Positions 3,978-23,152 of a stretch of 38,061 nt of DNA are shown piece by piece. The notes below the pieces were generated by a model. The model had not been told where the DNA came from. It made no database searches and saw only the letters and a program-made list of their open reading frames with translations. The stretch's first letter is position 1; each line of letters opens with the position of its first letter. Where the stretch lies: positions 1 to 38,061 of the forward strand of contig JAMCYW010000030.1 in assembly GCA_023473255.1 (NCBI GenBank). Direction: 5' to 3'. Origin of the DNA: Candidatus Martarchaeota archaeon (lineage in GTDB: Archaea > Micrarchaeota > Micrarchaeia > Micrarchaeales > Micrarchaeaceae). A program made the translations under genes and the position numbers.

Positions 3978-4115
3978 AGAATCACCGCATGCATATAATA
4001 AAATCAGCCTGTGGGCTTTATTATACTTAAAAGTTACATTTAGTAGTTTTAAATTGAAAGTTATAAATAACATACCTTAACAGAAAGGTGAAATAAAAGG
4101 ATAAGAATCTTATAT

Positions 4116-4132
4116 TAAAAACAAAAAATACA
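4116..4132 (-). terminator. T-rich tract, possible terminator of the acidic micropeptide transcript
   Basis: Minus strand reads TTGTATTTTTTGTTTTTAA downstream of the stop; archaeal termination is typically at T-runs. Confidence 0.4.
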
Positions 4133-4164
4133 AGTTACAATCTCTTGCTGTTTCTACCTATATA

Positions 4165-4248
4165 TTACTCCTCGTCGTCGTCTTCTTCCTCGTCGTCGTC
4201 TTCTTCCTCTTCTTCCTCTTCGTCGTCTTCTTCCTCATCTTTTGCCAT
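4165..4248 (-). CDS. 27-aa hyperacidic micropeptide MAKDEEEDDEEEEEEEDDDEEEDDDEE
   Basis: ATG at 4248 preceded by AGGTGTGAT (SD-like) and a TATA-like stretch at 4281-4295 on the minus strand; in-frame TAA at 4165-4167; T-rich tract downstream. The track's longer ORF (to 4446) crosses the promoter and is not needed. Confidence 0.6.
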   Translation of the reverse strand: MAKDEEEDDEEEEEEEDDDEEEDDDEE

Positions 4249-4280
4249 GGTATCACACCTTAAAGCTATATAACAAATAC

Positions 4281-4295
4281 AAATATATATAAAAA
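4281..4295 (-). promoter_or_regulatory. TATA-like element for the acidic micropeptide gene
   Basis: Minus-strand TTTTTATATATATTT about 25 nt upstream of a likely start site just before AGGTGTGATACCATG. Confidence 0.5.
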
Positions 4296-4600
4296 CTTTT
4301 CTGAAAAATCCAATTTGCCATAAAATGCATCTTCTAGCGATTGCAAACAAAAGCCTTATGTGTGTAAAGGAACCTTTGCGGCTGCTATTTAAATTGGGCG
4401 CCAATCCAAATAAATTACGCAATATATTTATTTCTATGCCTTGCATAAATAAAGTGCAACTTTCGTTGCTGTTTACACATAACAGTATGCTCTAAAATCT
4501 AGAATGCCCGTCGATATGAAGGTATATATATTAGAACGGCACATTATGGGTTGAGTTATTATTTGAGCTATTACAATTCATATTAAATAAGGTGAAACAA

Positions 4601-5878
4601 ATGGCAGACAAACCACATATGAACCTAATCTTTATAGGACACGTTGACCACGGAAAATCAACGACTGTAGGCAGATTGCTTTACGAAACTGGAGCAGTTA
4701 CGGACAGGGACCTGGCAAGATACAAAGAAATTACACAGCAGCTTAACAGGTCAACATTCGAATTCGCATTCGTAATGGATCAGCTGAAGGAAGAGCGAGA
4801 GAGAGGAATAACAATAGACATAATGCACAGGGATTTTCAGACTCCTAAGTATTATTTCACGATTATAGACGCACCTGGACACAGGGACTTCGTAAAGAAC
4901 ATGATTACTGGAGCAAGCCAGGCAGACGCTGCAGTTCTAGTAGTGAGTGCAGTCGACGGAGTGCAGTCGCAGACAAGGGAGCATGCCATATTGGCGAACG
5001 TGCTGGGCATAGGGCAGATAATTGTAGGCGTAAACAAGATGGATGCTGCAAATTTTGAGCAGGCTAAATTCGAGACTGCAAAGAAGAGCGCAACAGACCT
5101 TCTGAAATCATTAGGCTACAGGAATGTAGATGCCATAAACGTGGTGCCCTATTCCGCTTACGAAGGAAGCAACATATCAAAGAAGCCGGAAAAGATGCCA
5201 TGGTACAATGGGCCAACGCTTCTGCAGGCATTGGATCTTTTGACAGTGCCGGTAAAGCCAACCGATAAGCCTCTCAGGCTGCCCATACAGGACGTATACA
5301 GCATATCTGGCTTTGGAACAGTGCCAGTAGGCAGGGTAGAGACAGGGGTAATGAAACCTGGAGACTCTGTAATAATAATGCCAAGCGGCGTAAAGACCGA
5401 GATCAAGAGCATCGAGATGCACCACCAGCAGTTGCAGAAGGCAGAGCCTGGAGACAACGTAGGCTTCAACATCAAAGGCGTAGACAGGAAGGACATAAAG
5501 CGCGGCGATGTCATAGGCCCTACAAGCAACCCACCGAAGGTAGCTGCAGAATTCACTGCACAGGTAATAGTGCTGCACCATCAGAACGTAATAGCCAAAG
5601 GATACACTCCTGTGTTCCACATACATACGGCGCAACTGGCATGCACTATAACTGATATACTTGAAAAGAAGGATCCAAAGACCGGCCAAACTATGGAGAA
5701 GAACCCGGAAACCATAAAGACTGGCGATATAGCCATAGTAAAAATAAAACCCACAAAGCCAATAGCACTGGAGAAGTACAGCGAATTCCCGCAATTGGGA
5801 AGGTTTGCAATAAGGGATATGGGAGAAACTGTCGGAGCAGGCGTCATACTCGATGTCGTGCCTGCAGTTCCTAAGTAA
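4601..5878 (+). CDS. tuf: Elongation factor 1-alpha
   Basis: [21 protein letters not shown] and full EF-1A domains 2-3. ATG at 4601 is preceded by GGTGA (4591-4595); the track's GTG start lies inside the SD. Confidence 0.97.
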
Positions 5879-6316: not shown

Positions 6317-6607
6317 ATGGTGGCAGTAAAAGATGTAGTTGAAGCCCTATCTCAATGCAAGGATCCGGAGCTAGATGCAGATATAGTAAACCTGGGGTTA
6401 ATATACAACATAAAAATATCTGAAGAAAAAGACGTTAAGGTTACGATGACTATGACATCGCCGATGTGCCCAGTCACATCGCTGATACTTGCTGATGCAC
6501 AGCTCAGGCTTGAAGGCATAAGCAATGTAAGAAAGGTAGAGCTTGAACTGGTTTGGGATCCTATGTGGGCCACGGAGATGATGAGCGACGACATAAAGTA
6601 CAGGTGA
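6317..6607 (+). CDS. DUF59/MIP18-family (SufT/PaaD-like) protein, probable Fe-S assembly factor
   Basis: CKDPELDADIVNLGLIY...MTMTSPMCP...V..ELVWDPMW is the MIP18-family signature. Confidence 0.9.
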   Translation: MVAVKDVVEALSQCKDPELDADIVNLGLIYNIKISEEKDVKVTMTMTSPMCPVTSLILADAQLRLEGISNVRKVELELVWDPMWATEMMSDDIKYR

Positions 6608-6615
6608 TTCAACCG

Positions 6616-7179
6616 TCAATAAGTTATGTTTTCTTCAGCCCTCCTGTACGCTATTATCTCATCCTTTTCAAACCAAGCTGCTATCTCGCGCTCTGCAGTC
6701 TGTGTGCCGTCAGAAGCGTGTATTATGCTTCTTACTATCCTGTGCTCGCTGTCTGCAATGCCATAGGAATCAGTCGAAAACATGCCCCTTATTGTAGATG
6801 GGTCTGCCAAGCTAGGCGCAGTGGCGCCAGCAAATTTTCTTACTGCTGATATTGCATCGTTGCCTTCCAAAACCATTGCGATTACCGGTTTTTCTTTAAT
6901 GCCATCTATGAGCCATCCCCTTATCTTTGTGCCCAATTCAAGCGGAGTTTCCTTTAATTCTAATCCTTGCTTGTCATAGCTTTTCTTGGTTTTCTCCCAT
7001 ACTCCTTCATACCACTCCTTATCTAAGGTATAATGCTTCTCTACAATTTCCTTTGCAGGTTTTACCGCTTTTATTGCGACTATCTTCAATCCTGCGTCTT
7101 CAAATGTTTGGATAATCCTGCCGCTAATGCCCCTGCATACTGCCTCGGGTTTTATCAGTACCAATGTTCTTTCTATCAT
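6616..7179 (-). CDS. ndk: Nucleoside diphosphate kinase
   Basis: MIERTLVLIKPEAV..., GATAPSLADPSTIRGMF, HASD active-site region. Start moved to the ATG at 7179 because residues before MIERT have no NDK counterpart. Confidence 0.94.
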   Translation of the reverse strand: MIERTLVLIKPEAVCRGISGRIIQTFEDAGLKIVAIKAVKPAKEIVEKHYTLDKEWYEGVWEKTKKSYDKQGLELKETPLELGTKIRGWLIDGIKEKPVIAMVLEGNDAISAVRKFAGATAPSLADPSTIRGMFSTDSYGIADSEHRIVRSIIHASDGTQTAEREIAAWFEKDEIIAYRRAEENITY

Positions 7180-7470
7180 AAAATCATCTATTAAAGCGAA
7201 CAAAAAATCATGTGAAACATAAGCTGATTTTGTCATATGGTCATATGTGCAATAAAGATTAAACAAAAATGTATTTAAAAGCTTTCAAATCATTTTTGAA
7301 CGCGGTATTATGTCCGGAAGAGCAGGAAACGAATAAATGTAAATGCAGAGCGCATACATGCATTACATGCACTATTTATCATCAGCCTAAAAACCATCTG
7401 TGGTAAAAGCTAAAAATCTAAACTGCCAATAGTTGCATGCATAATCTCTGGTTTTTGCTAGGTGCTATTG

Positions 7471-9225
7471 ATGATAAGGCAGCCGATAATAAGCGTAATG
7501 GGTCATGTCGACCATGGCAAGACATCGCTATTGGACAGGATAAGAAATACTGCAATAGCATCGAAGGAGTCGGGCCGGATAACCCAGCACATAGGCGCCA
7601 GCGAAGTCCCGATAAGCGTTGTCAACAGCGTATGCTCCGACATTCCAGGCGTGGCAAAAGGCTCCATAACCCTGCCGGGCCTTCTGTTCATAGACACCCC
7701 TGGCCACGAAGCTTTCACCAACTTGAGAAAGCGGGGCGGCAGCGTTGCAGACCTGGCAATTGTCGTAGTAGACATAATGCAGGGCTTCCAGCCACAGACT
7801 CTAGAAGCCATAAATATCCTCAAAGAATACAAAACCCCGTTCATAATCGCTGCAAATAAGATAGACCTTATAACGGGTTGGCGTACAACAAAATCAAAAA
7901 GCTACGTCGAAGCCCTTTCAAAGCAATCAGAAGCTGTCAAGTCGGCCCTTGACTCTAAGTTATTTGAGCTCATAGGCAGGCTGAGCGAATTGGGCTTCAA
8001 TAGCGAACTCTACAGCAGAGTTGAGAACTTTCAGAAGGAATTGGCTATAGTACCGCTCAGCGCAAAGACTGGGGAGGGCATAGCTGAACTGCTTATGCTG
8101 GTTTCTGGGCTTGCGCAAAGATTCCTCGAAATGAAACTGAACATAGAGGTCAATGGCCCTGGAAAAGGGAGCATACTCGAAAAGAAAGAAGAAAAGGGCC
8201 TTGGCACTACGATAGACGTGATACTTTACGACGGCACGCTTAGGGTAAATGACCAGATAGCGTTTGCAACGGCAGACAATAAGGTGGCCACAACAAAAAT
8301 AAGAGCCTTACTAAAGCCCAAGCCTTTGCATGAGATGCTAGAATCGACTAGCAAGTTCTATTATGTAGACGAGGTAAATGCTGCATCCGGAATCAAGATA
8401 AGCGCAGTGGGCCTGGAGGACGCAATGCCCGGCTCCCCGATAATGCAGGCAACCGGAGAAGGATATGCAAAGGAGATAACTACAGAGCTAAGCGATGTAT
8501 TCAAGGTAGACAAGGAGGGCATAGTCCTTAAAGCCGATTCCATAGGAAGCATAGAAGCCATATCAAAACTGCTTGCATCTGAAAATTTCAAGATAAGCAA
8601 GAAGGGCATAGGCAGCATCTCCAAGCGCGACGTCATAGACGCGTTCGGCATGCTTGCGTCAAATCCAATCTATGCTGTAGTTATTGCGTTCAACGTCCAG
8701 ATGGAAGACGATGCAAAGGAGGCTGCATCATCGAGCAGCATAAAGGTAATAAGCAGCGATATAATATACAAGCTTGTGGACGATTACAAAGCGTTCGTAG
8801 AAGAAAGCTCTAAGAACAGGCAGAAGAGGGTAGAAGAGAGCATATCATTTCCGGCTGAGATAGAGGTATTGCCAAATTCCTGCTTTAGGGCATCGCATCC
8901 TGCAATTTTCGGCATAGAAATAAAATTGGGCAAGATAAGGCCGAACAATGTTATTATGAACGACATAGGCGAAGTCGTTGGAAAGATCAAAGGCATGCAG
9001 AACGAAAAGTCGCCCCTCCAATCCGCAAAGAAAGGAGATCAAGTGGCAGTATCGATGGATGAGCCTTCATTTGGGCGCCAAGTGCGCGAGGGCCAGACGC
9101 TATACGTGCGGGTGAGCGACGGAGACCAGGTCCTCTTGAAAGGCGAATTTGCTTCGCTGCTGGCTGACGACGAGAAGGATTTACTTGAAAAAATAATCGC
9201 AATTAAAAGAAAGGAAAAGCGCTGA
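7471..9225 (+). CDS. infB: Translation initiation factor aIF5B
   Basis: MIRQPIISVMGHVDHGKTSLLDRIR, DTPGHEAFTNLRKRGG, AANKIDLI; GGTG SD at 7461 upstream of the ATG at 7471. Confidence 0.96.
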   Translation: MIRQPIISVMGHVDHGKTSLLDRIRNTAIASKESGRITQHIGASEVPISVVNSVCSDIPGVAKGSITLPGLLFIDTPGHEAFTNLRKRGGSVADLAIVVVDIMQGFQPQTLEAINILKEYKTPFIIAANKIDLITGWRTTKSKSYVEALSKQSEAVKSALDSKLFELIGRLSELGFNSELYSRVENFQKELAIVPLSAKTGEGIAELLMLVSGLAQRFLEMKLNIEVNGPGKGSILEKKEEKGLGTTIDVILYDGTLRVNDQIAFATADNKVATTKIRALLKPKPLHEMLESTSKFYYVDEVNAASGIKISAVGLEDAMPGSPIMQATGEGYAKEITTELSDVFKVDKEGIVLKADSIGSIEAISKLLASENFKISKKGIGSISKRDVIDAFGMLASNPIYAVVIAFNVQMEDDAKEAASSSSIKVISSDIIYKLVDDYKAFVEESSKNRQKRVEESISFPAEIEVLPNSCFRASHPAIFGIEIKLGKIRPNNVIMNDIGEVVGKIKGMQNEKSPLQSAKKGDQVAVSMDEPSFGRQVREGQTLYVRVSDGDQVLLKGEFASLLADDEKDLLEKIIAIKRKEKR

Positions 9226-9236
9226 ATACGAATACA

Positions 9237-9258
9237 AAATATTCCTTTTTGAATATTT
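9237..9258 (+). terminator. Perfect 8-bp hairpin AAATATTC-CTTTTT-GAATATTT after infB
   Basis: Read directly from sequence; 11 nt after the infB stop codon. Confidence 0.45.
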
Positions 9259-9388
9259 GCCAACACTATTTATACTGCAAAAAATCCAATGCATTACATA
9301 AGCGTTTGTGGAATTAACTTATAAGTATCTGTTGAAGGTTAATCCAGCACATATCAAAGATGCAAATCTAAAAACAAAAAATGATTGA

Positions 9389-10588
9389 ATGAGCAACATA
9401 AGGATATCGGAAAGCAGATCGGCGCACGTCGCAAGCCAAAATGTCGAGTATGTGGAGAGAAAGGGCATAGGGCACCCCGACAGCCTGATAGACGGGATAG
9501 TGGAAAGGGCGAGCGTAGAGCTGTCAAAAGCTTATATGGACAGCACAGGCATGATACTGCACCATAACCTGGACAAGGGCCTTATAATAGGCGGCGCATC
9601 TGAAGCCTCTTTCGGCATTGGCAAAATAACGAAACCCATAGAAATCATACTTGCCGGAAGGGCAATAAAAAGATACCAGGACATAGATATACCTGTGGAT
9701 GACATTGTGCTCAAGGCCGCCTTGGACTATCTAAAGGAGCATACAAGGTTCCTTGACCTTGAGAACGAAGTGATATTCAATTCAAAGATCCTAAAAGGCT
9801 CTTCCGATCTTACCGGCATATTCAATAGGAGCACCGACGTGCCGCTGTCAAATGACACATCTTTCGGCATAGGTTTTGCGCCGTTCACCGAAACAGAGAA
9901 GCTTGTCATGGAATCAGAGCACTTCCTAAATGGAAATGAATACAAGCAAGCTCATCCATATGTCGGCGAAGACATAAAGGTAATGGGCGTACGCGAAGAA
10001 AACAAGATAACCCTTACGATCGCAATTGCGTTTGTATCGAAGTTTGTAGCGAATGCGGACCAATATGACGATTACAAGGCAAGGATTGCCGAAGATGTAA
10101 AAGCATTCGCCAAGAAGATAACATCAAAAGAGGTAGAAGTAATAATAAACAACGGGGACCATCGTGCAAGCGGCAGTTTCTATCTGACTAAATCAGGATT
10201 GAGTTGCGAATCAGGCGACGACGGCTCGGTTGGAAGGGGCAACAGGGTAAACGGCATAATAACGCCATTCAGGCACATGAGCCTGGAGGCTGCAGCAGGC
10301 AAGAATCCGGTAAGCCATGTCGGCAAGATATACAGCATATTGGCTAACGAAATAGCTTCCGATGCAGTAAAGCTGTACCCTGAAATAATAGAATGCAATG
10401 TATCGATTGTATCGCAGATAGGCAGGCCAATAAACGATCCGAGAAATCTCGACATAAAGGTAATACTAGATGGAAAAGGAAGCATATCTAACATTGCCAA
10501 CAAATTGACTGGGCTTGCAGAGCAGTCGCTAGAAAATATCGGATTTCTGACAAGGGAAATCGTGGCGGGCAAATACAATATGTTCTAG
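9389..10588 (+). CDS. mat: Archaeal-type S-adenosylmethionine synthetase
   Basis: ERKGIGHPDSLIDGI, GGDDGSVGRGNRVNGIITPFRHMSLEAAAGKNPVSHVGKIY are diagnostic of archaeal MAT. Confidence 0.96.
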   Translation: MSNIRISESRSAHVASQNVEYVERKGIGHPDSLIDGIVERASVELSKAYMDSTGMILHHNLDKGLIIGGASEASFGIGKITKPIEIILAGRAIKRYQDIDIPVDDIVLKAALDYLKEHTRFLDLENEVIFNSKILKGSSDLTGIFNRSTDVPLSNDTSFGIGFAPFTETEKLVMESEHFLNGNEYKQAHPYVGEDIKVMGVREENKITLTIAIAFVSKFVANADQYDDYKARIAEDVKAFAKKITSKEVEVIINNGDHRASGSFYLTKSGLSCESGDDGSVGRGNRVNGIITPFRHMSLEAAAGKNPVSHVGKIYSILANEIASDAVKLYPEIIECNVSIVSQIGRPINDPRNLDIKVILDGKGSISNIANKLTGLAEQSLENIGFLTREIVAGKYNMF

Positions 10589-10705
10589 CAGTCGGCGTAT
10601 TGTTTACATTTCGATGTAATACTTTATTGGCATGTACTGCAAGGGCACTTTTTTTGCGCTGAAATCGTTTGGCCTTACAGCACTAAGATTTGGACGTTTT
10701 GCTTA

Positions 10706-10791
10706 AGCCTCAAGTGGGAATCGCACCCACGGCCTTCTGCTCTATGGATAAAATTTACCATGCAGACGCTCTACTCCTGAGCTATTGAGGC
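10706..10791 (-). tRNA. tRNA-Thr(GGU), 14-nt intron at canonical position 37/38
   Basis: Minus strand: GCCTCAA TA GCTC-AGGAGTA-GAGC G TCTGC-ATGGTA[AATTTTATCCATAG]A-GCAGA AGGCC GTGGG-TGCGATT-CCCAC TTGAGGC T. All stems pair. Anticodon ATGG helix pairs with intronic CCAT, flanked by 3-nt bulges TAA and AGA (BHB). Discriminator U73 and G1-C72/C2-G71 fit Thr. Confidence 0.9.
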
Positions 10792-10846
10792 AGGAATCAA
10801 CTCTAATAATTGATGATAAAATTATATAAAATAATGTGTTTGCAAT

Positions 10847-12337
10847 TTACGAAATTATACTGACGCTTCCGATATGTGCGACCGGCATCACGCCGTTCGG
10901 AGGGTAAGTGCGCGTAAGTAACCAATAATATCTTATTATATCGCCTCCGCTACAACAAAAAACCCCTAGTGATGTATAAAGGTTTTTTGGCATACTTAAA
11001 TCTGATGCAGTGGAAAAAGATAAAACATAGTTTTTATAATAAGCCTGAGAGTTATCTGATACCCAAGCCATTCCATCCACTCCTGGTGTTGCTATCTGTA
11101 AATCTATATTTTGCCCAGAATTCATCCCAACAGATAAACTTCCCTCGCCTATACTTCCGCTCCATCCATTAAAATCGTATCCTGCGGAATAGGTATAATA
11201 TCCAATCTGCTGGGCTATACCGCCAGATAACGCCCCACCACTTTGCGATTCTACAAATGTCTCAGATATAATTGGAGCTATGCTTTTTGATGCTGATACT
11301 ACTCCTGCCCATGATCCTGATCCTGTATCTACTGTTAAGCCCTGATCTACTATTATTGAAGAACCGCTTGACGTGTAAGGAATAAGCGACGGTGGAAGGG
11401 TAGTTCCCGAGAAGTTCCAATAAGCGTCAAACACATTCGCTCCGTTGTCGTATTTTCCGTATGTGGCGCATCCTGCAGTGTCTGCAGGGTCAGGGCATGA
11501 GAGCTGCGGGGCTTCGCCAGCATACTGGCCGCTGTAGCCGACTGTAAGCGGCAATATGTACATGCTTATGCTAAGGTTGTGCGAAGGAGGTATCGCAACC
11601 GGAATCTTTACCCAGAATATTGCGTTGCCAGTTGCAGAGCTTGAGCAGTTAGCCTCGCACCAGCTGTAAAGCTCCTTGCTTTTATAATAAAATCTTATGT
11701 TGCCTAAATCCGGCCTTTCATATAATACGTATCCAGATGGGTTGAAGCTGACCAATTCCTGAAAGTGTGCAGGCACAGCACTCTTCTGGCTGTTTGTTAT
11801 GTTTATCTGCGTATTCGTGTTCTTTCCAAAGTTCAGCTTCACGGTTTGCGTTCTTATGTTGCCTCCATATGTGTAATTGCTGTCAGCTGGACATTTGGTA
11901 GTGTAAAAGTTGCTTGATGCCGGAGTGCAGTAATTTGCGTATATGTCAAACGTGCCAAAGTATACTGATCCGAATGACGGAGTAACGCCTATGTTTGCTA
12001 TGCAGTACACCTTTTGCCCTTCTGTTGCAACGCTAGGCACGCAGTATCCTGAAGTGCTCTCATGGTAATCTATGTATCCGCTAAACCTGCTTATGTTTAC
12101 TATGCCCGGCTGCATATCCGTAGCGCTTATCAGAAGTATGGAATTAACGCCTGCTGTGGAATTTATGGTGTATATTCCATCAACGCACGAGAACCCGCTG
12201 AGAAACGAGCATTGCGTAGGCAATATAGTCTTAGGTATAGATATGAAAAGTACTAGCACTGCAATTGCTATGGCTATTACCAATATAACAAAGCCGTATA
12301 CAGAAAGAAACTCAACTGCGCTTTGAGCTTTAAGCAT
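10847..12337 (-). CDS. Class III signal-peptide (pilin-like) surface protein with DUF2341/LamG-like region
   Basis: Start at ATG 12337 gives MLKAQSAVEFLSVYGFVILVIAIAIAVLVLF, a class III (archaellin/pilin) signal; later ISLVSFNPSGYVLYERPDLGNIRFYYKSKELYSWCE...FWVKIP resembles DUF2341. Confidence 0.75.
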   Translation of the reverse strand: MLKAQSAVEFLSVYGFVILVIAIAIAVLVLFISIPKTILPTQCSFLSGFSCVDGIYTINSTAGVNSILLISATDMQPGIVNISRFSGYIDYHESTSGYCVPSVATEGQKVYCIANIGVTPSFGSVYFGTFDIYANYCTPASSNFYTTKCPADSNYTYGGNIRTQTVKLNFGKNTNTQINITNSQKSAVPAHFQELVSFNPSGYVLYERPDLGNIRFYYKSKELYSWCEANCSSSATGNAIFWVKIPVAIPPSHNLSISMYILPLTVGYSGQYAGEAPQLSCPDPADTAGCATYGKYDNGANVFDAYWNFSGTTLPPSLIPYTSSGSSIIVDQGLTVDTGSGSWAGVVSASKSIAPIISETFVESQSGGALSGGIAQQIGYYTYSAGYDFNGWSGSIGEGSLSVGMNSGQNIDLQIATPGVDGMAWVSDNSQAYYKNYVLSFSTASDLSMPKNLYTSLGVFCCSGGDIIRYYWLLTRTYPPNGVMPVAHIGSVSIIS

Positions 12338-12401
12338 AATCTTTATAAGAAAATCATATATAAAAAGATGCACCAATAATACTAAATCTAGTGTAAGATC
12401 C

Positions 12402-13205
12402 ATGCCCAACAAATACATTGCATTAGCCAAGGGACTACGCCCAAAGAAAAGCCTTGGCCAGAATTTCCTCGTAAGCAAGCAGATAGCCGAGATTGAAGCT
12501 GCTTATGCGTCAGGCAGGAACGTTATAGAGATAGGCCCGGGCCTGGGCATATTGACAAAGCAGCTGTGCAAGGCAGGCAAGATGATACTTGCAGTGGAAA
12601 AGGATACAAGGGTATACAATGCACTGATCGAAATGGAATCGCACAGGAACCTAAAAGTATTGAATGCAGATTTTTTCTCCTTAGCCGACGAAACGCTAGA
12701 TGGTTTTGACATAGTCGTGTCAAACATACCCTATCAATTATCCAGCAAGACGCTCATGTGGCTGTCGAATCATAGCATGGAAGCAGTATTGTGCCTGCAG
12801 AAAGAATTCGTAGAGCACATGCTGGCAAAGCCAGGCACAAAAAAATATTCCAAGCTTAGCGTGATGATGGCCCTTACCAACAAGGTAACGCAAATAATGC
12901 GGGTGCCAAGATCAAATTTCTACCCGGTTCCTAAAGTAGATTCTATAATTATATTGGTTAAGCCGCTGGGCCGCAGCATAAACCCCAAAATATCTTCGAT
13001 AATCGGCATGCTGATGGAGCACAAGAAGAAAAGGCTAAAGAATGCAATTGCCGACTCATCGAAATACCTGGGCGTAAGCAAGGAGGCAGCAGCGCGCATT
13101 TCAGGCAGAATAAGCAATAGAGAAGATCGCGTTTTCAAATTGATGCCAGAACAAATACTAGAAACTGCAGGCAGAATAGAAAGAGAACTCAAAAACATGG
13201 CATAA
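12402..13205 (+). CDS. rsmA: 16S rRNA adenine dimethyltransferase KsgA/Dim1
   Basis: KKSLGQNFLVS, EIGPGLGILT, SNIPYQLSS (NPPY-type), PVPKVDS. Confidence 0.96.
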   Translation: MPNKYIALAKGLRPKKSLGQNFLVSKQIAEIEAAYASGRNVIEIGPGLGILTKQLCKAGKMILAVEKDTRVYNALIEMESHRNLKVLNADFFSLADETLDGFDIVVSNIPYQLSSKTLMWLSNHSMEAVLCLQKEFVEHMLAKPGTKKYSKLSVMMALTNKVTQIMRVPRSNFYPVPKVDSIIILVKPLGRSINPKISSIIGMLMEHKKKRLKNAIADSSKYLGVSKEAAARISGRISNREDRVFKLMPEQILETAGRIERELKNMA

Positions 13206-13296
13206 TAAATATTGCAGTATTGGCAGGATGCCTAAATAACGCCAACGCATAAGTTATAAATATACTTAATTACAATAAAATTTAGCAAATCTTATA

Positions 13297-16200
13297 ATGG
13301 CAAGGATTATGGAGCAGATACATCGTCTTATTATAATGTTCATCGCATTGCCGATATTCGTGCTTTTGGCCTCCAATGCATCAGGCGCATCGGCGAATCC
13401 AACTTACAATATGGGCGCCGCAAATGCAGTCGCTATAAACAGCATTCCTATAATGGCAGCTCCTGCGCCATCAACATGCACTGTTGCATCTACGCCAAAA
13501 ACCTATTCAAATACTGCAAAGCCATACGTGCTGCAAAGCTCGGTTTGTGCAACCGACATAACGATTGACAGCGGTGTCACTGTAATAACCAATAACCAAT
13601 CTATGACAGCTACAGGCACATTTACTATTGATTCCGGCGGCGTTCTTGAAGGTGCTGGCGCCGCTCCCGGCGGCGGATGTTCTGAAGCCAAATCATGCTC
13701 ATCCCCTGGCAATTCAGGAAACGTGCAAGAGCCTGGAGGAGGTTCAGGCGGCGATGGAACTAGTGGAACATACGGCGCAAGCGGTTCAGGCGGCGGAGGC
13801 GCAGATGCTCCTGGTGGTAGCAGCACTTCTAACGGAGGCAACAACGGAGGAGGCGGAGGAGGAGGCACCGCGCTTAGCTCAATAGAAAGCGCATGCACAC
13901 ACTCCGAGGATGCTGGCGGAGCAGGGGGCGGCAAGGTCTTAATATATGCTGGAAATTTCTTAAATTATGGCATTATAAATGCTGCAGGGGTATCGGCTTC
14001 AGATAATGGGCAAGGCGTGGATGATGCAGGCGGAGGAGGCGGAGGAGGTTATGTCCTGCTTTATATAGAATCATTAAATCCGTCCAATATAAACATAGGG
14101 GATGTCTATGCCAATGGGGGAAATGGTGGCCTTGCACATACTAGCAAATGCTCAAATGGTGTTATTTCACAAACTAAACAGGGGCGTGAGGGCGGCGGAG
14201 GAGGCGGAGGCAATGTAACAATATACGTTCTTGATAAAAACATTGAGAATGCAATAAATACAAACGCAGTAAACGTGAAAGGAGGTTTTTCAGGTAGTTG
14301 CTACACTGGTAATAATTGCGATACTGCCAACAACGGCAACTCAGGCACATTATATGTAAAAACGCTGGTTCCCAACGGATGCCTTCCTGGCATAACTGGA
14401 AATCTCTTCACCAGCGGAAGTTGCACGTTCTATGCGAATGACACTATAACAACTACTTACGATAACGGGGTAGTGGGCAACGGGCAGATAAGTGCTCAGA
14501 AGGCAAGTGTAACATCGACTGCATCAATGACCGGCAATATTGTTGCCTTCAACAGCCAGAATGCACAGTGGCTTCTTACCTGCCCCGTAGCACCAAATCC
14601 AAGCAATACGCTGGAATACATGATATCCGATGCGTCGTCTTTCGTAGGTGGAAACAGATGCCTTGCAAGCAGCAATTCACTTACTTCAAAGGTACAACTG
14701 GCTACATATGCATACTGGAACGATTCAAACAAAAATACGCGTGTTGCTAATGCAATCGCATATGTCACATTCCAAAATCTGGGCGATGCTTCGATATCAA
14801 ACCTTGGGTATTCTGGAGAGGCCAATACTACTAACAATGTGGCTCCATTTCTGTCAAGCAACTATAATACGCAATCATACATATTTGATTATGTTCCTCC
14901 ATCGTTGCAGAGCGGACTATGGACATGGAATGCAAAGTATGCAGATCTGTCCAATGCGGACCTGTCTAATTCCAACCCACTCCAGCAAAAGACCGAGACT
15001 ATGCAGAACCTTCAGTTTACCACCAGCGGAGGGTGCACATATATATATAATTTTCAGGTATCCGCTCAATTGGACAGCATACAGAATGCGAATATACCTG
15101 TGCCCGTAGCACTAAAAAATATCCCATCAAATTACATCGAATTTACCAGCATTGGATTAAAGTATTATCCAGCTGTAAGCCAACCGCTACCAGGCCACTG
15201 TGCTGAAGATCTATGGACTGATCCGCTTGGCGAACAGCAGGTGACTTGCGATGGTGGCGGCGAAACGTTCAATGTCATTTCATCAGGTGATGCGCTGTTG
15301 AATTGGACTGGTTCATCAAATCCAAACCTGCCAAAAGGTGCATATGGAGGAAACAATGCGTACACATCTACCTCATATCCAAATGAATACATAACCTCAG
15401 TGGACTATGTCACATACAGTTCATGCTATGAAATTTTTACCTGCGCAAATAACAACTACTACACATTCTCTGCACCTATTGGCGTAGCCAAGGTGGAAAA
15501 TAGCCCAGTATACCCGTATCTGCTTTACAATATAAGCATACCTTCAACAGAAACCAACATAGGCCACGGCACTTCAGACCTGAATCTATCCCTTGATATG
15601 TATAGTCCTCATAACACATTCAGCCCTGGAAACTATCTTGAGCCATATCGCCTATCAACTGGCTCGGGCTTTTTCACTACATTGCATGTGAACGGCGGTT
15701 CGTATCTCGCAGAATATCCTATAAACTGGACATCATCAAATGCTGTGTTCGATAAGCCTATAACAAATTTCATTTCTACGTTGTCCAATGCTGCGGCAAG
15801 CGCAATAACCGGACTGACAAACCTTATAAGCGGCGGTGCAGTGGGCAGCTTTTCAAACGGCGAAATAACTCAGCCATCTTTCATAGCCTCATCATCCAAT
15901 GACCATATATACATATTGAATTATACCACTAGATCTACTGGGTGCTATATCACTTGCACAGGTAAATCGACAAGCACATTCCTTTATACAATGAGGTTCA
16001 TACCCCCAGGATATTTCAACATATCTAGGTTCCAGCCTAACTTTACCGAAAGTTATGTAACTCCTAGCGCATCTAGCTGGAATTCTATCTGGACCAACTA
16101 TTGGGACAATATTATCAATATACAATCGAAGAACCTCTATATAACAAACGTTACAGAAATATCTAGTGGAACCACTAACTTCTGCTGGAACCTCTCGTTC

Positions 16201-19200
16201 AGCTGCTCCAGCAGCAATGCCGGGGCAGATTTCAGCAGTTTCATACCAACTGCATTAACGTCGGATTATTCTGGAGACATATTTATATTGGGTCAGATAT
16301 CTGGTTCATCTAACTATGAAGTATCTGCCATATTCTCAAACAAGACATATGCTGCCAATTCATTGAGCGCAGAATCGGGTTTCAGCCCGGTGAGCCAGAT
16401 AGCAGCTACGCCAGGGGGGCAATACATTTATGTATCAAATTCTACCGGAAACGTTTCTATGTTCAAGGCCGCAAAAAACAGCATAACGTTCGCAGGATAC
16501 ATAAATCTAGGCTATTCAAATTATACCGATAATCTATCCATAACCTCTTATCTGCAGCATGGCGGCCCATATGCAAATTCGTTGATAGCTAAAGCATATT
16601 CAAATGAACCTGTGTCAAATGACATAAATTCCAACCATATCCCAATCGGAATTGCATCGTACGACGGGGTATTGTACGAACTCGACAATTGGTCATTTAC
16701 TGTAAATGGGCTGCAATCTAGCATGCTGATGCTCAGGGCATTCAGTGCAAACGGCACAGAAATTCCGATAAAAGCGCAGAATTACAGCGACATAATACCT
16801 AACAATGTACCTACCACAGATTTGAGCACCGGGGGTTCAGGAATAACGTATTTCCCTCCGTTTGGATGGCCTCTATCCGCGAACATATCTATTGGCAATG
16901 GCAACTATATAACGTACTGCGCAGCGAATTGCGACTTCACGCCATCCAACATCCCTGCGAGCAAAGCAGACGGTTATCTGCCAATAGGCCCAAGCATATC
17001 AAATCAAGGCAACGTCGGCCCAAATTCCGACGATCTGGGCTTCACGTCAAATTTCAACGGGACCATGATGATATTGGCGCATGCACATTCGTATAGCTAT
17101 ACCCCTCCTTCAAAAGAGTGTTCCTCTTCTGCAGCTGAGCGTAGAATTAATCCCACATGCGATATTCAAAACACTGCGGGCAGCTCTATGTATACCGAAC
17201 TGCTGAAGTTTAAGCCGGTTATAATAAATTATACAAAGGTGTCATTTGCCCAGAATTCAAAATACAGCTGCTTCATCGCAAATACGATAGCAGTAAGCAA
17301 TACGCCATGCACCATAAACTACAACATAGCTGATATGTATCCGCCATTTACAGAGGTGCCGAGTTCATTCAATTATTCTACAGATGAGGGTTCGCCGACG
17401 AAATACTTCTCCATATCTAGCGTGGTGTCATCACTATTCCCAACGGGAATCTCGTCAAGTTATAGTACCTCTGCCAATTCCGCAGCCGACACCGGCAGCG
17501 GCCTAACCGACAACAGTGCTGATGATATCTATAGCGCTGCAAATTCGCTCACACCTTTCGGTCCACCAAGCATCGTGCCGCAGACATATATAAACAGCAC
17601 CATAAGGGGCTATTTTATAGTGCCATATACTGCATCATACTCGCTTTCAGAATCATGGAGCCCTCAGAGCGACCCTGCGACGTCCAGTTCTCCGTCATCG
17701 TGCAGCGCCTACAATTTCCCCAGCCCTACGACTATCGATTATAGCGGATATTCTGTGGGGCAGTTCAATTACACAAGCAATCAAGCCAGCATAAATAGCA
17801 CCATACAGGGAGGGTATTCATATGCCCAATACCTTGTAAATCCAAAGACATATTACAACGCCAGCCTGTCAGACCAAAACTTGATATTTCCCGGAGAAGT
17901 GAACCTTGCGATGCTAACAAACAAGCTGTTTGGCAACATGTACATAAACCAGAGCGTAGGGAGTTCAAATGGAAAGATTCAATTGCTAAGCAATCCCTAC
18001 GTAATAAATGCCACAAGGGGTTTGTTGTATAGCGAATTTTATGTGAATCAGACGTCTGCGCCTGACACGCCCTCGGGATTCACATTCCCGTCTATCGGCT
18101 ATCCAGGCTATATGCTGACCCAAGCCAACGTGTTAAATCCCATAGAATACGGTGCAGCTAATGCGGTTTTGGAAAATATCAATCCATATCCTGAAAGCAA
18201 TAACCTGGTATTTATCAATAAAACAACCCCTGCAATGGTCAATCTGTACTCTTTATACAAGAAGGTGTCGCAGTTAGACCTGCTATTCCAAGGGTTTCCA
18301 AACAATGCAAATGTCCTTGGGTATAACCGCTTCATGTATGTATTCACTGACGCTTTCAACAATACTGTATACATGCCGCTTGACACAGACCTGTCAAATA
18401 TCACGTCCATAACTTTGAATCCATCCATTGTGATCAATCCCACGAACTCTAACGAAACGGCGATAACTGTAAGTGGGACTGCTGGATACTATAGCGGCGT
18501 ATTCGGAGATAAATACGTGCCATTGCCATCAGGCGATCCTATATACGTATATTACGATACCAACATAAACTTCTTTAATTCAAGCGTAGCTCCTCCATCG
18601 CAGGCGTATTTCGATTATAGTGATCAATGCGCGTTTGCATCAAATTCTACTGGATGCCAATATGCAGATCCTTTGTCATCGGTGACGCAGGGCGGATATT
18701 ATATAAAGGAGGCAGATGCTCCAACATTCCACACGCAATATAATGACACTCCAAACGCGCAAGGCGTTTCGACATGCTCGCCATCGCCAACAAGCCTGCT
18801 TTCGGCACACATACCGATAAACTGCAACATATACGGAAATTACGGCTTGCCTATATCGATATCATCGAGCGAAACGCCTAACAATGAGCCGGAATATTGC
18901 CTTCCAGAATTTGCTAATGGAACGGGCGTACTAACCTCACAGATGGGCTTAGTTGGAATTGTACACACAAATAACTTGGGCCAATTTTCTGAAAAATTTA
19001 ACGTATGTGGAACCGGCACCGCAAAGATCATGGCGCAATATTTTGGCAATCCTGGTCCTGAACCGCAGCTCGTATATCAGCCGCCCATAAGCGAATCAGT
19101 GGGCAGCTATGCGGCGCAGGATGCAAATAGCCTAAATACATTAGAATACGCATATACTACATCTCCAAATGCCACGGCCGTATCGCTTGACATAGGAAAC

Positions 19201-19311
19201 TACGCGCTGGGGTTTGGTGGCATCAGCATAGGCTTAACTTTGATAATGGCCATACTCGCGATAATATTCCTCTTAACAAGGCACGGAGCGCAGAATGCAA
19301 AGAGGAGATAA
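13297..19311 (+). CDS. Giant (2004 aa) secreted, C-terminally membrane-anchored surface protein
   Basis: N-terminal signal sequence (RLIIMFIALPIFVLLASNASGASA), Gly-rich block (GGGGSGG.../GGGGGGGT), many N-x-S/T sequons, YVTN/beta-propeller-like segment (VSQIAATPGGQYIYVSNSTGNVSMF), C-terminal TM (ISIGLTLIMAILAIIFLL) followed by TRHGAQNAKRR. TATA-like ttataaatatac about 13253-13264. Confidence 0.75.
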   Translation: MARIMEQIHRLIIMFIALPIFVLLASNASGASANPTYNMGAANAVAINSIPIMAAPAPSTCTVASTPKTYSNTAKPYVLQSSVCATDITIDSGVTVITNNQSMTATGTFTIDSGGVLEGAGAAPGGGCSEAKSCSSPGNSGNVQEPGGGSGGDGTSGTYGASGSGGGGADAPGGSSTSNGGNNGGGGGGGTALSSIESACTHSEDAGGAGGGKVLIYAGNFLNYGIINAAGVSASDNGQGVDDAGGGGGGGYVLLYIESLNPSNINIGDVYANGGNGGLAHTSKCSNGVISQTKQGREGGGGGGGNVTIYVLDKNIENAINTNAVNVKGGFSGSCYTGNNCDTANNGNSGTLYVKTLVPNGCLPGITGNLFTSGSCTFYANDTITTTYDNGVVGNGQISAQKASVTSTASMTGNIVAFNSQNAQWLLTCPVAPNPSNTLEYMISDASSFVGGNRCLASSNSLTSKVQLATYAYWNDSNKNTRVANAIAYVTFQNLGDASISNLGYSGEANTTNNVAPFLSSNYNTQSYIFDYVPPSLQSGLWTWNAKYADLSNADLSNSNPLQQKTETMQNLQFTTSGGCTYIYNFQVSAQLDSIQNANIPVPVALKNIPSNYIEFTSIGLKYYPAVSQPLPGHCAEDLWTDPLGEQQVTCDGGGETFNVISSGDALLNWTGSSNPNLPKGAYGGNNAYTSTSYPNEYITSVDYVTYSSCYEIFTCANNNYYTFSAPIGVAKVENSPVYPYLLYNISIPSTETNIGHGTSDLNLSLDMYSPHNTFSPGNYLEPYRLSTGSGFFTTLHVNGGSYLAEYPINWTSSNAVFDKPITNFISTLSNAAASAITGLTNLISGGAVGSFSNGEITQPSFIASSSNDHIYILNYTTRSTGCYITCTGKSTSTFLYTMRFIPPGYFNISRFQPNFTESYVTPSASSWNSIWTNYWDNIINIQSKNLYITNVTEISSGTTNFCWNLSFSCSSSNAGADFSSFIPTALTSDYSGDIFILGQISGSSNYEVSAIFSNKTYAANSLSAESGFSPVSQIAATPGGQYIYVSNSTGNVSMFKAAKNSITFAGYINLGYSNYTDNLSITSYLQHGGPYANSLIAKAYSNEPVSNDINSNHIPIGIASYDGVLYELDNWSFTVNGLQSSMLMLRAFSANGTEIPIKAQNYSDIIPNNVPTTDLSTGGSGITYFPPFGWPLSANISIGNGNYITYCAANCDFTPSNIPASKADGYLPIGPSISNQGNVGPNSDDLGFTSNFNGTMMILAHAHSYSYTPPSKECSSSAAERRINPTCDIQNTAGSSMYTELLKFKPVIINYTKVSFAQNSKYSCFIANTIAVSNTPCTINYNIADMYPPFTEVPSSFNYSTDEGSPTKYFSISSVVSSLFPTGISSSYSTSANSAADTGSGLTDNSADDIYSAANSLTPFGPPSIVPQTYINSTIRGYFIVPYTASYSLSESWSPQSDPATSSSPSSCSAYNFPSPTTIDYSGYSVGQFNYTSNQASINSTIQGGYSYAQYLVNPKTYYNASLSDQNLIFPGEVNLAMLTNKLFGNMYINQSVGSSNGKIQLLSNPYVINATRGLLYSEFYVNQTSAPDTPSGFTFPSIGYPGYMLTQANVLNPIEYGAANAVLENINPYPESNNLVFINKTTPAMVNLYSLYKKVSQLDLLFQGFPNNANVLGYNRFMYVFTDAFNNTVYMPLDTDLSNITSITLNPSIVINPTNSNETAITVSGTAGYYSGVFGDKYVPLPSGDPIYVYYDTNINFFNSSVAPPSQAYFDYSDQCAFASNSTGCQYADPLSSVTQGGYYIKEADAPTFHTQYNDTPNAQGVSTCSPSPTSLLSAHIPINCNIYGNYGLPISISSSETPNNEPEYCLPEFANGTGVLTSQMGLVGIVHTNNLGQFSEKFNVCGTGTAKIMAQYFGNPGPEPQLVYQPPISESVGSYAAQDANSLNTLEYAYTTSPNATAVSLDIGNYALGFGGISIGLTLIMAILAIIFLLTRHGAQNAKRR

Positions 19312-19360
19312 AAGAATATATTTAAATATCAAAAATACCATTCTATATATAGATGAGTTT

Positions 19361-21181
19361 ATGCTTTGGCTTGTTGCGCTGAGCTTTAATGCAGTATATA
19401 CGCTTATTCCAATAATAATAATAGTGGTTCTTATCGGAGCAGGCGCAGGGCTTTCCAGGAACACTGATTTCTTTGCCTTGATGGGTTTTGGGACTCTGAT
19501 TAGCGCAGCTAGGCCAGGCGGAAGCGTAGGCAAAGGCTTTAAAGGCACTAAATATGGAGGTGGCAAAGCAAAGCGCGGCCCTATAAAGAAGCATAACAAA
19601 AAGAAGCCAACACGAATTAAGAGAGTTAAGGGGCTAATAAAAAAGATATCTGCAAAGCATGTCATGAACGTGAAGCTTAAAAATCAGGCGAAGGCAAATC
19701 TTGGCATAAAAGCCGCAAATAGCATGCATAATACCGGTTCGCAGGCCAAAAAATTGGCAACGCAAGTGCAAGTTAAGAACATGAACAACTCTGCATTGAC
19801 TGCCTTGACTCTTGGCAGAATAAATATGGCTACGTCGCATGCAAGAAAGCTTAAAGGCGCAGGCCCGCAAACCAAGTATGGAATATACGGGCAAAAATTG
19901 GCTGACAGTAAAGTTGGAGAAAATCTACGAGATGCAAGAAACGCGCGCAATGCTGCCGTAAAGAAGCTGAATGAATCCTATAGGAAACAGGCAGATTTTA
20001 AAGAATCCCTTATAAGCAAAACATACCCATCTGGAAAGCCAAAGAGCCTTTCTGATAAATTCAAGGATTCTGATGTAAAATCTGAAGAACTGAAGAAGTC
20101 ATTGGTAGCCACTATGCTAAAGCATCCTGTAATATTCGGTGCAGTTTCCCTTCCCGCATTTCTGGCCGCCAGGTATACTACCAAAGCCGGAAAGCAGAGG
20201 GGAATAGACCTGAGCGTCGAAAAGAACAAAGCAATAGTGGCAAAAAAAATAAGGAATGAAGAAAAAACAAGGTCAGATGCCAATTATATGCTGTTTAAGT
20301 CATCGATGCCCAGCAAGAAAGAAGCTAGAACCGCGTTCAAAAACGAATACAAAAAATTAAAAAGCGAATATAACAACATTCAAAACGCCGAGAAAGAAGC
20401 TAAAAAAAGCACGAAAAAAGCTGAGGTAAACATGATAAAAAGCCAGGCTGAAGCCTACTACAAAAATATGACATGGGCGCAGATGCTTAAGATTAACGCC
20501 ATAGATCGCTGGAATTACAATAAGGCACCTATCTTCGATCAAGAAGGCAGGCAAAAGAATCCTTCAATTTTGGGGAGCCATTATGAAAAGAAGATAAATA
20601 ACATGGACGAATCGCAGATAAATAAACTAAATGATAGGCTTAATAAGGTGCCTTCGATAAAAGACACCACTTCTAAGGTCGACAGAGAGAAGGAAGCTTT
20701 AGGCATTGCGATGCTATCAAAAAGGAAGCAAAAGAAGTATGAGCGCCTAGAGGAAAAAGAGACAAACAAATCAATATCCAGCAAGGAAAAGGAAACTAAG
20801 GACGAAATAGGGCTGAAAGCGGCTGCAATTATAGATAGGCGCGCCAAGGCCATTAGATACCAATTCCATCCTGAAATAAATCCTCAAACTAATCCACAAA
20901 CAAACCAACAAACTGGCTCAAACAAAAAGCCCAGCCAGCCGAAGATGACTAGCGACCAATTCAAAAAAGATTTTCAGGAAAAGCGCAACGCTGAAGCTGA
21001 GCTAAAAGCAAAAGAGTATTATTTGGATAAGTACAAAAAACAACTGGAAAAAATAGCGCGGGAAAAGCAGGAAAACGCAGACGAAGAGAGGAGAATAGAA
21101 GAAGAAAAGCAAAAGAAAGCGCAAAAAAAATCAAACCCATCAAGCAAACCAAACCCTCCAAACAAACCGAGCAAGCCATGA
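19361..21181 (+). CDS. Lys-rich membrane-associated protein with coiled-coil-like regions
   Basis: N-terminal hydrophobic segment (WLVALSFNAVYTLIPIIIIVVLIGAGAGL), highly basic body, second short hydrophobic segment (HPVIFGAVSLPAFLAA), Pro/Asn/Lys tail. The track start at 19295 overlaps the upstream CDS; the ATG at 19361 lies about 35 nt after a TATA-like tttaaatat and is equally plausible. Confidence 0.6.
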   Translation: MLWLVALSFNAVYTLIPIIIIVVLIGAGAGLSRNTDFFALMGFGTLISAARPGGSVGKGFKGTKYGGGKAKRGPIKKHNKKKPTRIKRVKGLIKKISAKHVMNVKLKNQAKANLGIKAANSMHNTGSQAKKLATQVQVKNMNNSALTALTLGRINMATSHARKLKGAGPQTKYGIYGQKLADSKVGENLRDARNARNAAVKKLNESYRKQADFKESLISKTYPSGKPKSLSDKFKDSDVKSEELKKSLVATMLKHPVIFGAVSLPAFLAARYTTKAGKQRGIDLSVEKNKAIVAKKIRNEEKTRSDANYMLFKSSMPSKKEARTAFKNEYKKLKSEYNNIQNAEKEAKKSTKKAEVNMIKSQAEAYYKNMTWAQMLKINAIDRWNYNKAPIFDQEGRQKNPSILGSHYEKKINNMDESQINKLNDRLNKVPSIKDTTSKVDREKEALGIAMLSKRKQKKYERLEEKETNKSISSKEKETKDEIGLKAAAIIDRRAKAIRYQFHPEINPQTNPQTNQQTGSNKKPSQPKMTSDQFKKDFQEKRNAEAELKAKEYYLDKYKKQLEKIAREKQENADEERRIEEEKQKKAQKKSNPSSKPNPPNKPSKP

Positions 21182-21217: not shown

Positions 21218-21943
21218 CTAAAGCACTCTTCTTAATATCTCGTTGCCTATATCCTCACCTGCAATGATCTCGGGCATGACTATCTTGTATATTCCAGCAT
21301 GGCCTATCCTCTGCAGGTTTTCCTGCTGTGCTATTCTTGATATCACCTTCAAACTATCGTTTATGGATTTTGCCGATATTGATATCAGTATGTTTTGCAC
21401 ATCGTCAGAGCTGCATGTTATCAGATGCGATGCCCATTTTGCACCTGCATTTCGCAGTACGTCTATCTGCGTTGGATCTCCGACTATCGGAAGCTTGCCT
21501 TTGCTATAAAGGAGGTCTGCCTCCTTTTCATTATCTACTATAACTACATAAGGTATGCGGTCTTTGTCCAAGCCCTCAATCAGCGTTTCAGAAAATCCGT
21601 TGAACGGTGCTATTACCATGTGGTTGTGCAGCCTCTTTATCCTGTTCAGGATTATCCTATCGCGTATCCTTACGCTTCTGAAGAAGTCAAAGAACAGCGA
21701 TGCAAGCCAAACCGTCAGCAGTGCAAATACGAAAACGTCTAGCAGATTTGCAGCAAATATGAGCGGCGTTTTGGAAATTGCAAAAGGTAAGGCGTAATAC
21801 ATTATGTCTAATGCAGCGAGGAAGTTCCACACTATAGCTATATTAAAGCCAACCCCTGCCTTCAATGTGAGAATTACTGATATGAGGAGCAACAATGCAG
21901 ATGCATAGATGAGCAAATATTGTTTTTGTCCAGCCATATTCAA
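21218..21943 (-). CDS. Membrane protein with C-terminal RCK/TrkA-N-like domain, degenerate pore
   Basis: Two hydrophobic segments then HNHMVIAPFNGFSETLIEGL...VGDPTQIDVLRNAGAKWASHLIT...VMPEIIAGEDIGNEI. Overlaps the upstream gene by 4 nt. Confidence 0.75.
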   Translation of the reverse strand: MNMAGQKQYLLIYASALLLLISVILTLKAGVGFNIAIVWNFLAALDIMYYALPFAISKTPLIFAANLLDVFVFALLTVWLASLFFDFFRSVRIRDRIILNRIKRLHNHMVIAPFNGFSETLIEGLDKDRIPYVVIVDNEKEADLLYSKGKLPIVGDPTQIDVLRNAGAKWASHLITCSSDDVQNILISISAKSINDSLKVISRIAQQENLQRIGHAGIYKIVMPEIIAGEDIGNEILRRVL

Positions 21944-22722
21944 TTACCCTTAAATATTTTTTTTATGCTGTTGCCCAATTCAAGCCCTGCAAGTATCTCA
22001 GGCACTATGCACAGCGATGCGCCAGCCCTATGCATTTTTGGCACTGCAAGTTCATCCTTTGCCCTAGCTATTATAAGTATATCCTGATTAGCGTGCCTTG
22101 CAGTTATTATGCCTAAAAGGTTCTCGAAATCGCTTTCCGTGCCGAATATAATTGCACGCGCGCTCGATATGCCTGCTTCTGAGAGCACGCTCTCGCTGGT
22201 GAAATTTCCAAATATCGTCCTGTAGTTCAGGCTTGATGCCTGGTCTATTTTTGCAGAGCTGTTATCTACAACTATGAAGTTCATGTTCTTTGAGGAAAGG
22301 TCCATGCAAAGCCTCTCTGCAAGCATGCTGTATCCGCATACAATTATCCCTTTCTGCTCCCGTCGCATCCTTAAATGACTCAGCCTTTCGCGCAGCTTTA
22401 TGTTTGTTATTAAATCTATTATCCCTGCCAAGAGGAAACCTATCGCCACTATCTTTATTATCCCGTCCATTATCAGGATGGAAAACAGCGGCCAAAAATC
22501 TGCGCTGAAGATGGGGATGTAATGTATTATCGCAGGAGCTGTGTTTACTCCTATAGTATCAAAAAGCACGCTTACAGTGAAGTATCCCGCATCATATAAA
22601 TTCTTTGTAATGAGGTCCACGAAATAAGTTGTTGCAAGTGCAAATACAACGACCACTACAATTACGAACGCTATGTACTTTATTGGTATCTTCTCTACAA
22701 ATTTTTTAGGATCTATCCCCAA
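21940..22722 (-). CDS. 2TM ion-channel-like protein with RCK (TrkA-N) domain
   Basis: 2TM/pore-like region LYDAGYFTVSVLFDTIGVNTAP followed by GIIVCGYSMLAERLCMDL...FGNFTSESVLSEAGISSARAII...VPEILAGLELGN. Confidence 0.8.
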   Translation of the reverse strand: MGIDPKKFVEKIPIKYIAFVIVVVVVFALATTYFVDLITKNLYDAGYFTVSVLFDTIGVNTAPAIIHYIPIFSADFWPLFSILIMDGIIKIVAIGFLLAGIIDLITNIKLRERLSHLRMRREQKGIIVCGYSMLAERLCMDLSSKNMNFIVVDNSSAKIDQASSLNYRTIFGNFTSESVLSEAGISSARAIIFGTESDFENLLGIITARHANQDILIIARAKDELAVPKMHRAGASLCIVPEILAGLELGNSIKKIFKGN

Positions 22723-22726
22723 CTGA

Positions 22727-23152
22727 TCACTGCTTCTTCTTCAATTCTCCTATTATTTCATCGCTGGCGCTCTTTTGCGGCGTAACGATGTAATCTGCTC
22801 CTGCTTCTACGAATTTCTCCCTTATCCTTTCGTCGTTTGCCCTAGTCGCAATGAACAGGCTTTTATTTAGGTCCCTTGCAGTAAGCACAGTGAATATGTT
22901 CTTTGCGTCATTATCCATTACTACTGCTATGGCTTTTGCACTAGTTATCCCTGCCGCACGTAAAGTTTTTGAAGAAGTGGCATCGCCTAATATTACGTTG
23001 TAATTTAACTCCTTTATGGTGTCTACGACGCTTGGGCTGTACTCTATAATTATAAACTGCACTCCGTGGTCTTCCAGTGCCTCAACCACTTTCTGCCCTA
23101 CAACTCCGTATCCGCAGACCACCACATGGTTTTCTAGTTTCTGTGTTGCCAT
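22727..23152 (-). CDS. Stand-alone RCK/TrkA-N protein
   Basis: HVVVCGYGVVGQKVVEAL (GxGxxG), GDATSSKTLRAAGI, VTPQKSASDEI. Confidence 0.88.
   Translation of the reverse strand: MATQKLENHVVVCGYGVVGQKVVEALEDHGVQFIIIEYSPSVVDTIKELNYNVILGDATSSKTLRAAGITSAKAIAVVMDNDAKNIFTVLTARDLNKSLFIATRANDERIREKFVEAGADYIVTPQKSASDEIIGELKKKQ

Follow-up and report, generated by a model that had tools for sequence, protein, structure and literature searches.

A giant exported surface protein and the basic membrane protein encoded directly downstream of it, here called the partner, form a conserved gene pair in one order of Micrarchaeota, and we see about an even chance that together they serve a Ced/T4SS-like apparatus as the arm that spans the envelope and faces the recipient. 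The pair, its conservation, its fusion into one frame in some relatives, the co-location of partner genes with a VirB4/CedB-like operon and the domain content of the giants are observed; it is from gene order and fusion that we read the two proteins as such an arm. The pair lies in a window of 38,061 nucleotides, that is, the whole stretch of DNA that was analysed (contig C23; the assembly totals 618 kb and is 83% complete), whose source we take to be a tiny symbiotic archaeon. Housekeeping genes neighbour it (EF1A, aIF2 gamma, CDC48, KsgA, GatDE and IleRS), and in many relatives too KsgA lies upstream and TrkA-type genes lie downstream. In the window, three consecutive TrkA-N/RCK genes (21218-23152, minus strand) adjoin the pair, an arrangement kept in many relatives. 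Two other genes of the window encode type IV pilin-like N-termini on larger ectodomains, QSAVEFL with DUF2341 (10847-12478, minus strand) and QSAFEFF with Big_1 (35523-36329, plus strand).

The original prediction described an exported protein of 2004 aa with a single C-terminal anchor and a short basic tail, and the reading frame and hydropathy profile bear this out (Table 1), with TRHGAQNAKRR following the only C-terminal TM segment. The ectodomain is acidic (119 D+E versus 56 K+R) and contains 34 Cys. Its dN/dS was calculated against a sister species whose giant is 86% identical. A glycosylation argument was dropped as uninformative, as the 42 sequons compare with 41 expected from composition. 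Profile searches returned no Pfam match for the giant or for the partner, as anticipated from the absence of a recognisable full-length family for either. The AF2 model of aa 361-1470 (pLDDT 74, pTM 0.75) matched YncE in Foldseek (probability 1.00, TMt 0.40), as well as Sec12, Atg18 and many other propellers, and the model of aa 1290-2004 (pLDDT 74.6) matched Ig-like sandwiches only. The core is thus predicted to contain at least one beta-propeller together with Ig-like domains, and because global TM-scores were low, the modelled fold as a whole appears to have no solved counterpart. Structure matches in BFVD were generic propellers, and a viral origin of the giant was set aside; a hidden lysozyme fold at aa 890-960 of the window giant, inspected by eye, was likewise unsupported.

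Table 1. Coordinates, strand and basis of the features of the giant-partner pair in the window
Feature	Position	Strand	Basis
Giant surface protein, 2004 aa	13297..19311	+	ORF, order-wide homologues, dN/dS 0.11
Giant, putative N-terminal hydrophobic export signal, aa 1-35	13297..13401	+	Hydropathy peak aa 11-29
Giant, Gly-rich variable N-terminal region, ~aa 112-348	13630..14340	+	Sequence; low alignment occupancy
Giant, conserved core with predicted beta-propeller(s), aa 361-1470	14377..17706	+	AF2; Foldseek
Giant, loop aa 812-860, hydrolase insertion site in relatives	15730..15876	+	Window giant without insert
Giant, C-terminal half, predicted Ig-like beta-sandwich chain, conserved Cys	17164..19176	+	AF2, Foldseek, invariant Cys
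Giant, pre-TM motif LGFGGI (family L-S-x-G-x-I), common to partner	19207..19224	+	Motif counts; hhalign
Giant, C-terminal TM (aa 1975-1993) and basic, putatively cytoplasmic tail	19219..19308	+	Hydropathy
TTTAAATA, possible TATA box of partner gene	19321..19328	+	Sequence; inference
Partner membrane protein, 606 aa, revised start	19361..21181	+	Start alignment; dN/dS 0.24
Partner, conserved N-module: LSFNAV, TM, LSR/TRG, amphipathic Gly segment	19361..19540	+	A3 profile
Partner, Lys-rich, Cys-free, poorly conserved, putatively cytoplasmic body	19541..21178	+	Sequence; no Pfam family

The partner ORF as first called (19295-21181, plus strand) encodes 628 aa with a net charge of +72 and 17% Lys. 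Translation probably starts at ATG 19361 (M23 of the ORF), because relatives begin there, the 22-codon extension shows omega 0.58 and low dS, and TTTAAATA lies 33-40 nt upstream; the start at 19295 was therefore dropped. With the revised start, 49 nt and no overlap separate the genes, in keeping with the expected very basic protein of about 600 aa placed tightly after the giant. Of the N-terminal hydrophobic segments that had been proposed, one is a clear TM, and the rest proved to be a conserved amphipathic Gly-rich stretch. Against the sister species, dN/dS falls to 0.12 over the first 60 codons, and it is these roughly 60 residues with their one helix, the module, that are conserved; the basic body is not. 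By these ratios and their homologues across the order, both genes are evidently kept by purifying selection and are not products of chance. The body contains 129 K+R versus 60 D+E and no Cys, so that an acidic, Cys-bearing giant ectodomain and a basic, Cys-free partner body would fit an outside/inside pairing. Among relatives the bodies share no common domain: a C-terminal J-domain (PF00226) was found in the partners of G011 (E 1.4e-17) and G018 (1.6e-9), LRV/HEAT repeats in one body and, by profile search, no J-domain in the window partner. That a conserved module is joined to a freely varying basic body suggests a shared task for the former and one tuned to each lineage for the latter. We also checked whether the partner might be a ribosomal or DNA-associated protein without membrane topology, and it did not prove to be one.

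To follow the pair across relatives, 301 genomes of the phylum were surveyed, 164 of them in the window's order. The A3 profile detected the partner module in 121 of the 301, all within the order, in single copy in 119 and in two copies in 2; the idea of a multi-copy family was dropped. The C-terminal half of the giant was found in 103 of the 301, 102 of them in the order, and both proteins thus appear essentially limited to this one order of Micrarchaeota. A two-component system implies that the genes co-occur in relatives, and they do: across the 164 order genomes, 96 have both, 25 the partner only, 6 the giant only and 37 neither (Fisher p 3e-14, a statistic that ignores relatedness). Order genomes at least 90% complete never have the giant without the partner (both 36, partner only 9, giant only 0, neither 6). 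Genus g4 has lost the giant and kept the partner; in these genomes (G005 and others, for example L198 1734-4400) the partner sits at the same locus, between the KsgA side and the TrkA genes. Duplicates also occur: partner genes in tandem in G244 (L197 6419-9373) and, in the sister species, a second giant paralogue (~40% identity) that runs off a contig end (L027 161-6219).

Gene order also ties the two together. Among 122 module copies, 51 have a giant directly upstream on the same strand, as the synteny proposed at the outset would have it, 3 are fused to the giant, 7 lie within 6 kb downstream of it without adjoining, 27 lie within 12 kb of a VirB4-like gene, and 34 are placed elsewhere. Loci L111-L179, which mostly overlap the genomes behind these copies, include 34 partners directly after the giant, 1 fused and 3 with one gene between. 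Ca. Micrarchaeum A_DKE (L112) has the giant at 7341-13379 and the partner at 13409-14779; in ARM-1 both genes are present and unlinked. The fusions occur in three species of one genus, g7 (G008, G220 and G221), each with a single frame that joins giant, one shared TM and partner body. In G008, the 3361-aa frame runs from the giant ectodomain through IGSYQLNLGNLYAWIP, one helix and the module segment FELFGFAALYD to the basic body, and a weak J-domain match follows the helix. An assembly error appears unlikely, because the separate assemblies G220 and G221 show the same join. The pre-helix motif L-S-x-G-x-I is present in 57 of 66 giants and 28 of 38 partners versus 42 of 1075 background TMs (4%). 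Profile comparison of the giant C-terminus with the partner N-terminus (hhalign) gave E 8.5e-5 and a probability of 60%, and control membrane families stayed below 1%. A gene split or fusion via the pre-helix/TM segment would be the simplest account of this likeness.

The other recurrent location of the module gene is in or next to an operon that encodes a VirB4-like ATPase, two TM proteins and six polytopic proteins (M1-M6), as seen for 27 copies from 26 genomes. Several arrangements occur: in G032 the gene is flanked by M6 and the genes upstream of VirB4 and shares their strand, in G036 it comes first in the operon, and in G021 it is divergent beside M1. G212 carries module and VirB4 gene twice each, with 1.9 kb separating the members of each pair. 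The window's own genome (G000) is not among the 26; its operon is on contig C18 (L074), away from the giant-partner pair. The ATPase scores over the Pfam cut-offs for HerA/VirB4/TraG profiles (PF01935 56.8, PF12846 54.2 and PF19044 32.6 bits), and its best NCBIfam matches are CedD (2.6e-19) and CedB (8.6e-19), both below equivalog cut-offs. M4 weakly matches CedA (E 2.6e-7, 30 bits versus a cut-off of 330), the other M proteins gave no meaningful profile match, and for M3 most relatives, G000 included, have a strong homologue. Close to the cluster, a two-TM protein of ~140 aa resembles, by eye, a VirB2/CedA1-like pilin. Neither giant nor partner showed a sequence relation to T4SS/Ced subunits (Pfam; hhalign for the partner), and a kinship of the module with the polytopic proteins was unsupported (hhalign probability below 6% against M1-M6, B3a and B3b). 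The L074 operon (6409-19901) also holds a small coiled-coil/wHTH protein, to which relatives add a ~790-aa ectodomain protein, and beside it a carbamoyltransferase gene (3252-4970, minus strand; PF16861, 9e-52) is kept in several relatives; as a Ced/T4SS-like system in DPANN archaea, the operon merits separate study.

The giants themselves vary among relatives. In some, InlB-repeat, PKD or Ig domains take the place of the N-terminal variable region, as with the InlB-type repeats of the L121 giant (1e-25) and the PKD domains of L168 (3e-23). In others, wall-hydrolase domains occur in or near the loop that corresponds to aa 812-860 of the window giant: SLT in L049 (2e-10), NlpC/P60 in L048 (1.7e-16), NlpC/P60 (1.2e-9) together with SLT_3 in L160, and weaker SLT_3, M23 and lysozyme matches in L046, L047 and L050. 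By eye, the motifs of the inserts are intact (DCSG and NHVAI, with Cys and His, for NlpC/P60; QESSF, with Glu, for SLT). The window giant has no such insert, and no SLT or NlpC/P60 domain was detected in it by Pfam search. Archaea are not known to have their own peptidoglycan; a surface protein of an archaeon is an unexpected place for peptidoglycan-hydrolase domains, and bacterial partners become possible.

Overall, these data are compatible with a model where the giant would be exported and held by its C-terminal helix, displaying a beta-propeller and an Ig-like stalk and, in some relatives, adhesion or wall-hydrolase domains. The partner would cross the membrane once, with its N-terminus out and its long basic body in the cytoplasm, the two helices lying side by side or, in the fused form, being one shared helix. 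The giant would contact the recipient, the partner would couple this contact to the membrane machine and the cytoplasm, and an apparatus encoded elsewhere in the genome, composed of a VirB4/CedB-like ATPase and CedA/VirB6-like channel proteins, would transfer DNA or protein powered by the ATPase. Topology, physical contact, and role and cargo in transfer are what we infer here; that the proteins act as a unit is suggested by adjacency, near placement, fusion and co-occurrence. A transfer role is suggested by the module copies near VirB4-like genes in several arrangements, by the ATPase matches above Pfam cut-offs and the M4-CedA match, and by the hydrolase inserts, which parallel the SLT and CHAP VirB1 proteins of monoderm T4SS (PMC12102498). 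The predicted two-component envelope structure is thus upheld by adjacency, co-occurrence and one-TM fusion, but the operon link argues for a transfer apparatus and not for the free-standing scaffold, adhesin or protrusion originally envisaged.

Several observations weigh against the transfer arm. Its main weakness is that the pair lies outside the operon in the window and in most of its family, and that the machine is often found without the pair. A VirB4-like gene is present in 250 of the 301 phylum genomes, so the machine is older and broader than the pair and does not need it. A joint loss of T4SS and pair in G013 and G028 had been considered, but both retain VirB4 (E<1e-230) without giant or partner, and g4 keeps a partner without a giant. 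No homology was detected between the module and the membrane proteins of the operon, the NCBIfam matches stay below equivalog cut-offs, and the co-occurrence statistic ignores phylogeny. Much of this would suit a stand-alone adhesion or anchoring device, in which the giant would bind the host as an adhesin, the partner would link it to structures in the cytoplasm and VirB4 proximity would be incidental: propeller, Ig, PKD and InlB-repeat domains are apt for adhesion, the pair is mostly away from the operon, and VirB4 exists without it. We consider this possible but on the unlikely side, as the partner recurs in or beside the same operon in several arrangements and module and VirB4 copy numbers match in G212.

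Two further explanations seem very unlikely. As a large, secreted, C-terminally anchored protein, the giant could be an S-layer lattice protein with the partner as its membrane/cytoplasm anchor, and cells of A_DKE and ARM-1 do bear visible S-layers (PMC8975820, PMC11329633). However, a separate PF05124 (S_layer_C) protein, ~1000 aa where complete, scores above cut-off in 33 of 41 relatives and is also present in A_DKE and ARM-1, many order genomes, genus g4 included, have no giant, and the giant matched neither PF05124 nor another S-layer family in profile searches; it was rejected as a recognised S-layer protein. The natural candidate for the A_DKE S-layer gene would be the PF05124 gene at 272-275 kb, and no PF05124 protein was found in the 83% complete assembly of the window's genome. 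Equally improbable is a partner that, in the manner of an ER J-protein whose basic domain binds ribosomes, serves as a membrane-docked ribosome/chaperone adaptor aiding synthesis or export of the giant, for although its body is highly basic, its gene adjoins that of a 6-kb secreted protein and J-domains occur in G011, G018 and, weakly, the G008 fusion, within the adjacent set just 2 of 38 partners have one, the partner persists without a giant in g4 and travels with the VirB4 operon, and permanent fusion in g7 ill suits a biogenesis helper.

The pair touches the question of how DPANN archaea recognise their hosts and trade material with them. A bolder version, in which Micrarchaeota carry a chromosomal Ced/T4SS-like machine with a giant arm and a coupler for contact-dependent transfer and hydrolase-bearing lineages act on bacteria, is speculative and rather doubtful; if true, some Micrarchaeota would attack bacterial neighbours or exchange with them, and not with archaeal ones alone. 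Homologues of giant, partner and VirB4-like ATPase in the co-cultured Ca. Micrarchaeum A_DKE and ARM-1 make the transfer-arm hypothesis testable.

Among known systems, archaeal S-layer proteins (PF05124) are, like the giant, large, secreted and at the surface, but the giant has no PF05124 match and relatives carry both. By description, the large surface proteins of Ca. Mancarchaeum Mia14 (PMC5498576), secreted Micrarchaeon proteins with propeller and PKD-type domains, are similar; they were described only as surface-layer candidates, with no partner, fusion or T4SS link reported, and we found no T4SS link for Micrarchaeota surface proteins in the open-access literature. Within that literature, Ced and Ted are described only in Crenarchaeota (PMC9905601). 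They combine a VirB4/CedB-like ATPase with a CedA-like polytopic protein; the partner-linked operon encodes such an ATPase and a candidate CedA-like protein, and differs in its six polytopic and two extra TM proteins. Neither system has a counterpart of giant or partner. Monoderm conjugative and Patescibacteria T4SS (PMC12102498) combine VirB4 with VirB6-like proteins, in the latter case in a reduced-genome epibiont whose machine is homologous to monoderm conjugation machines and for whose epibiotic growth wall-degrading enzymes near virB4 are reportedly essential (PMC12102498). There, the machine comes with surface adhesins or SLT+CHAP VirB1 hydrolases, whereas here the hydrolase domains, where present, are loops in a giant anchored propeller protein.
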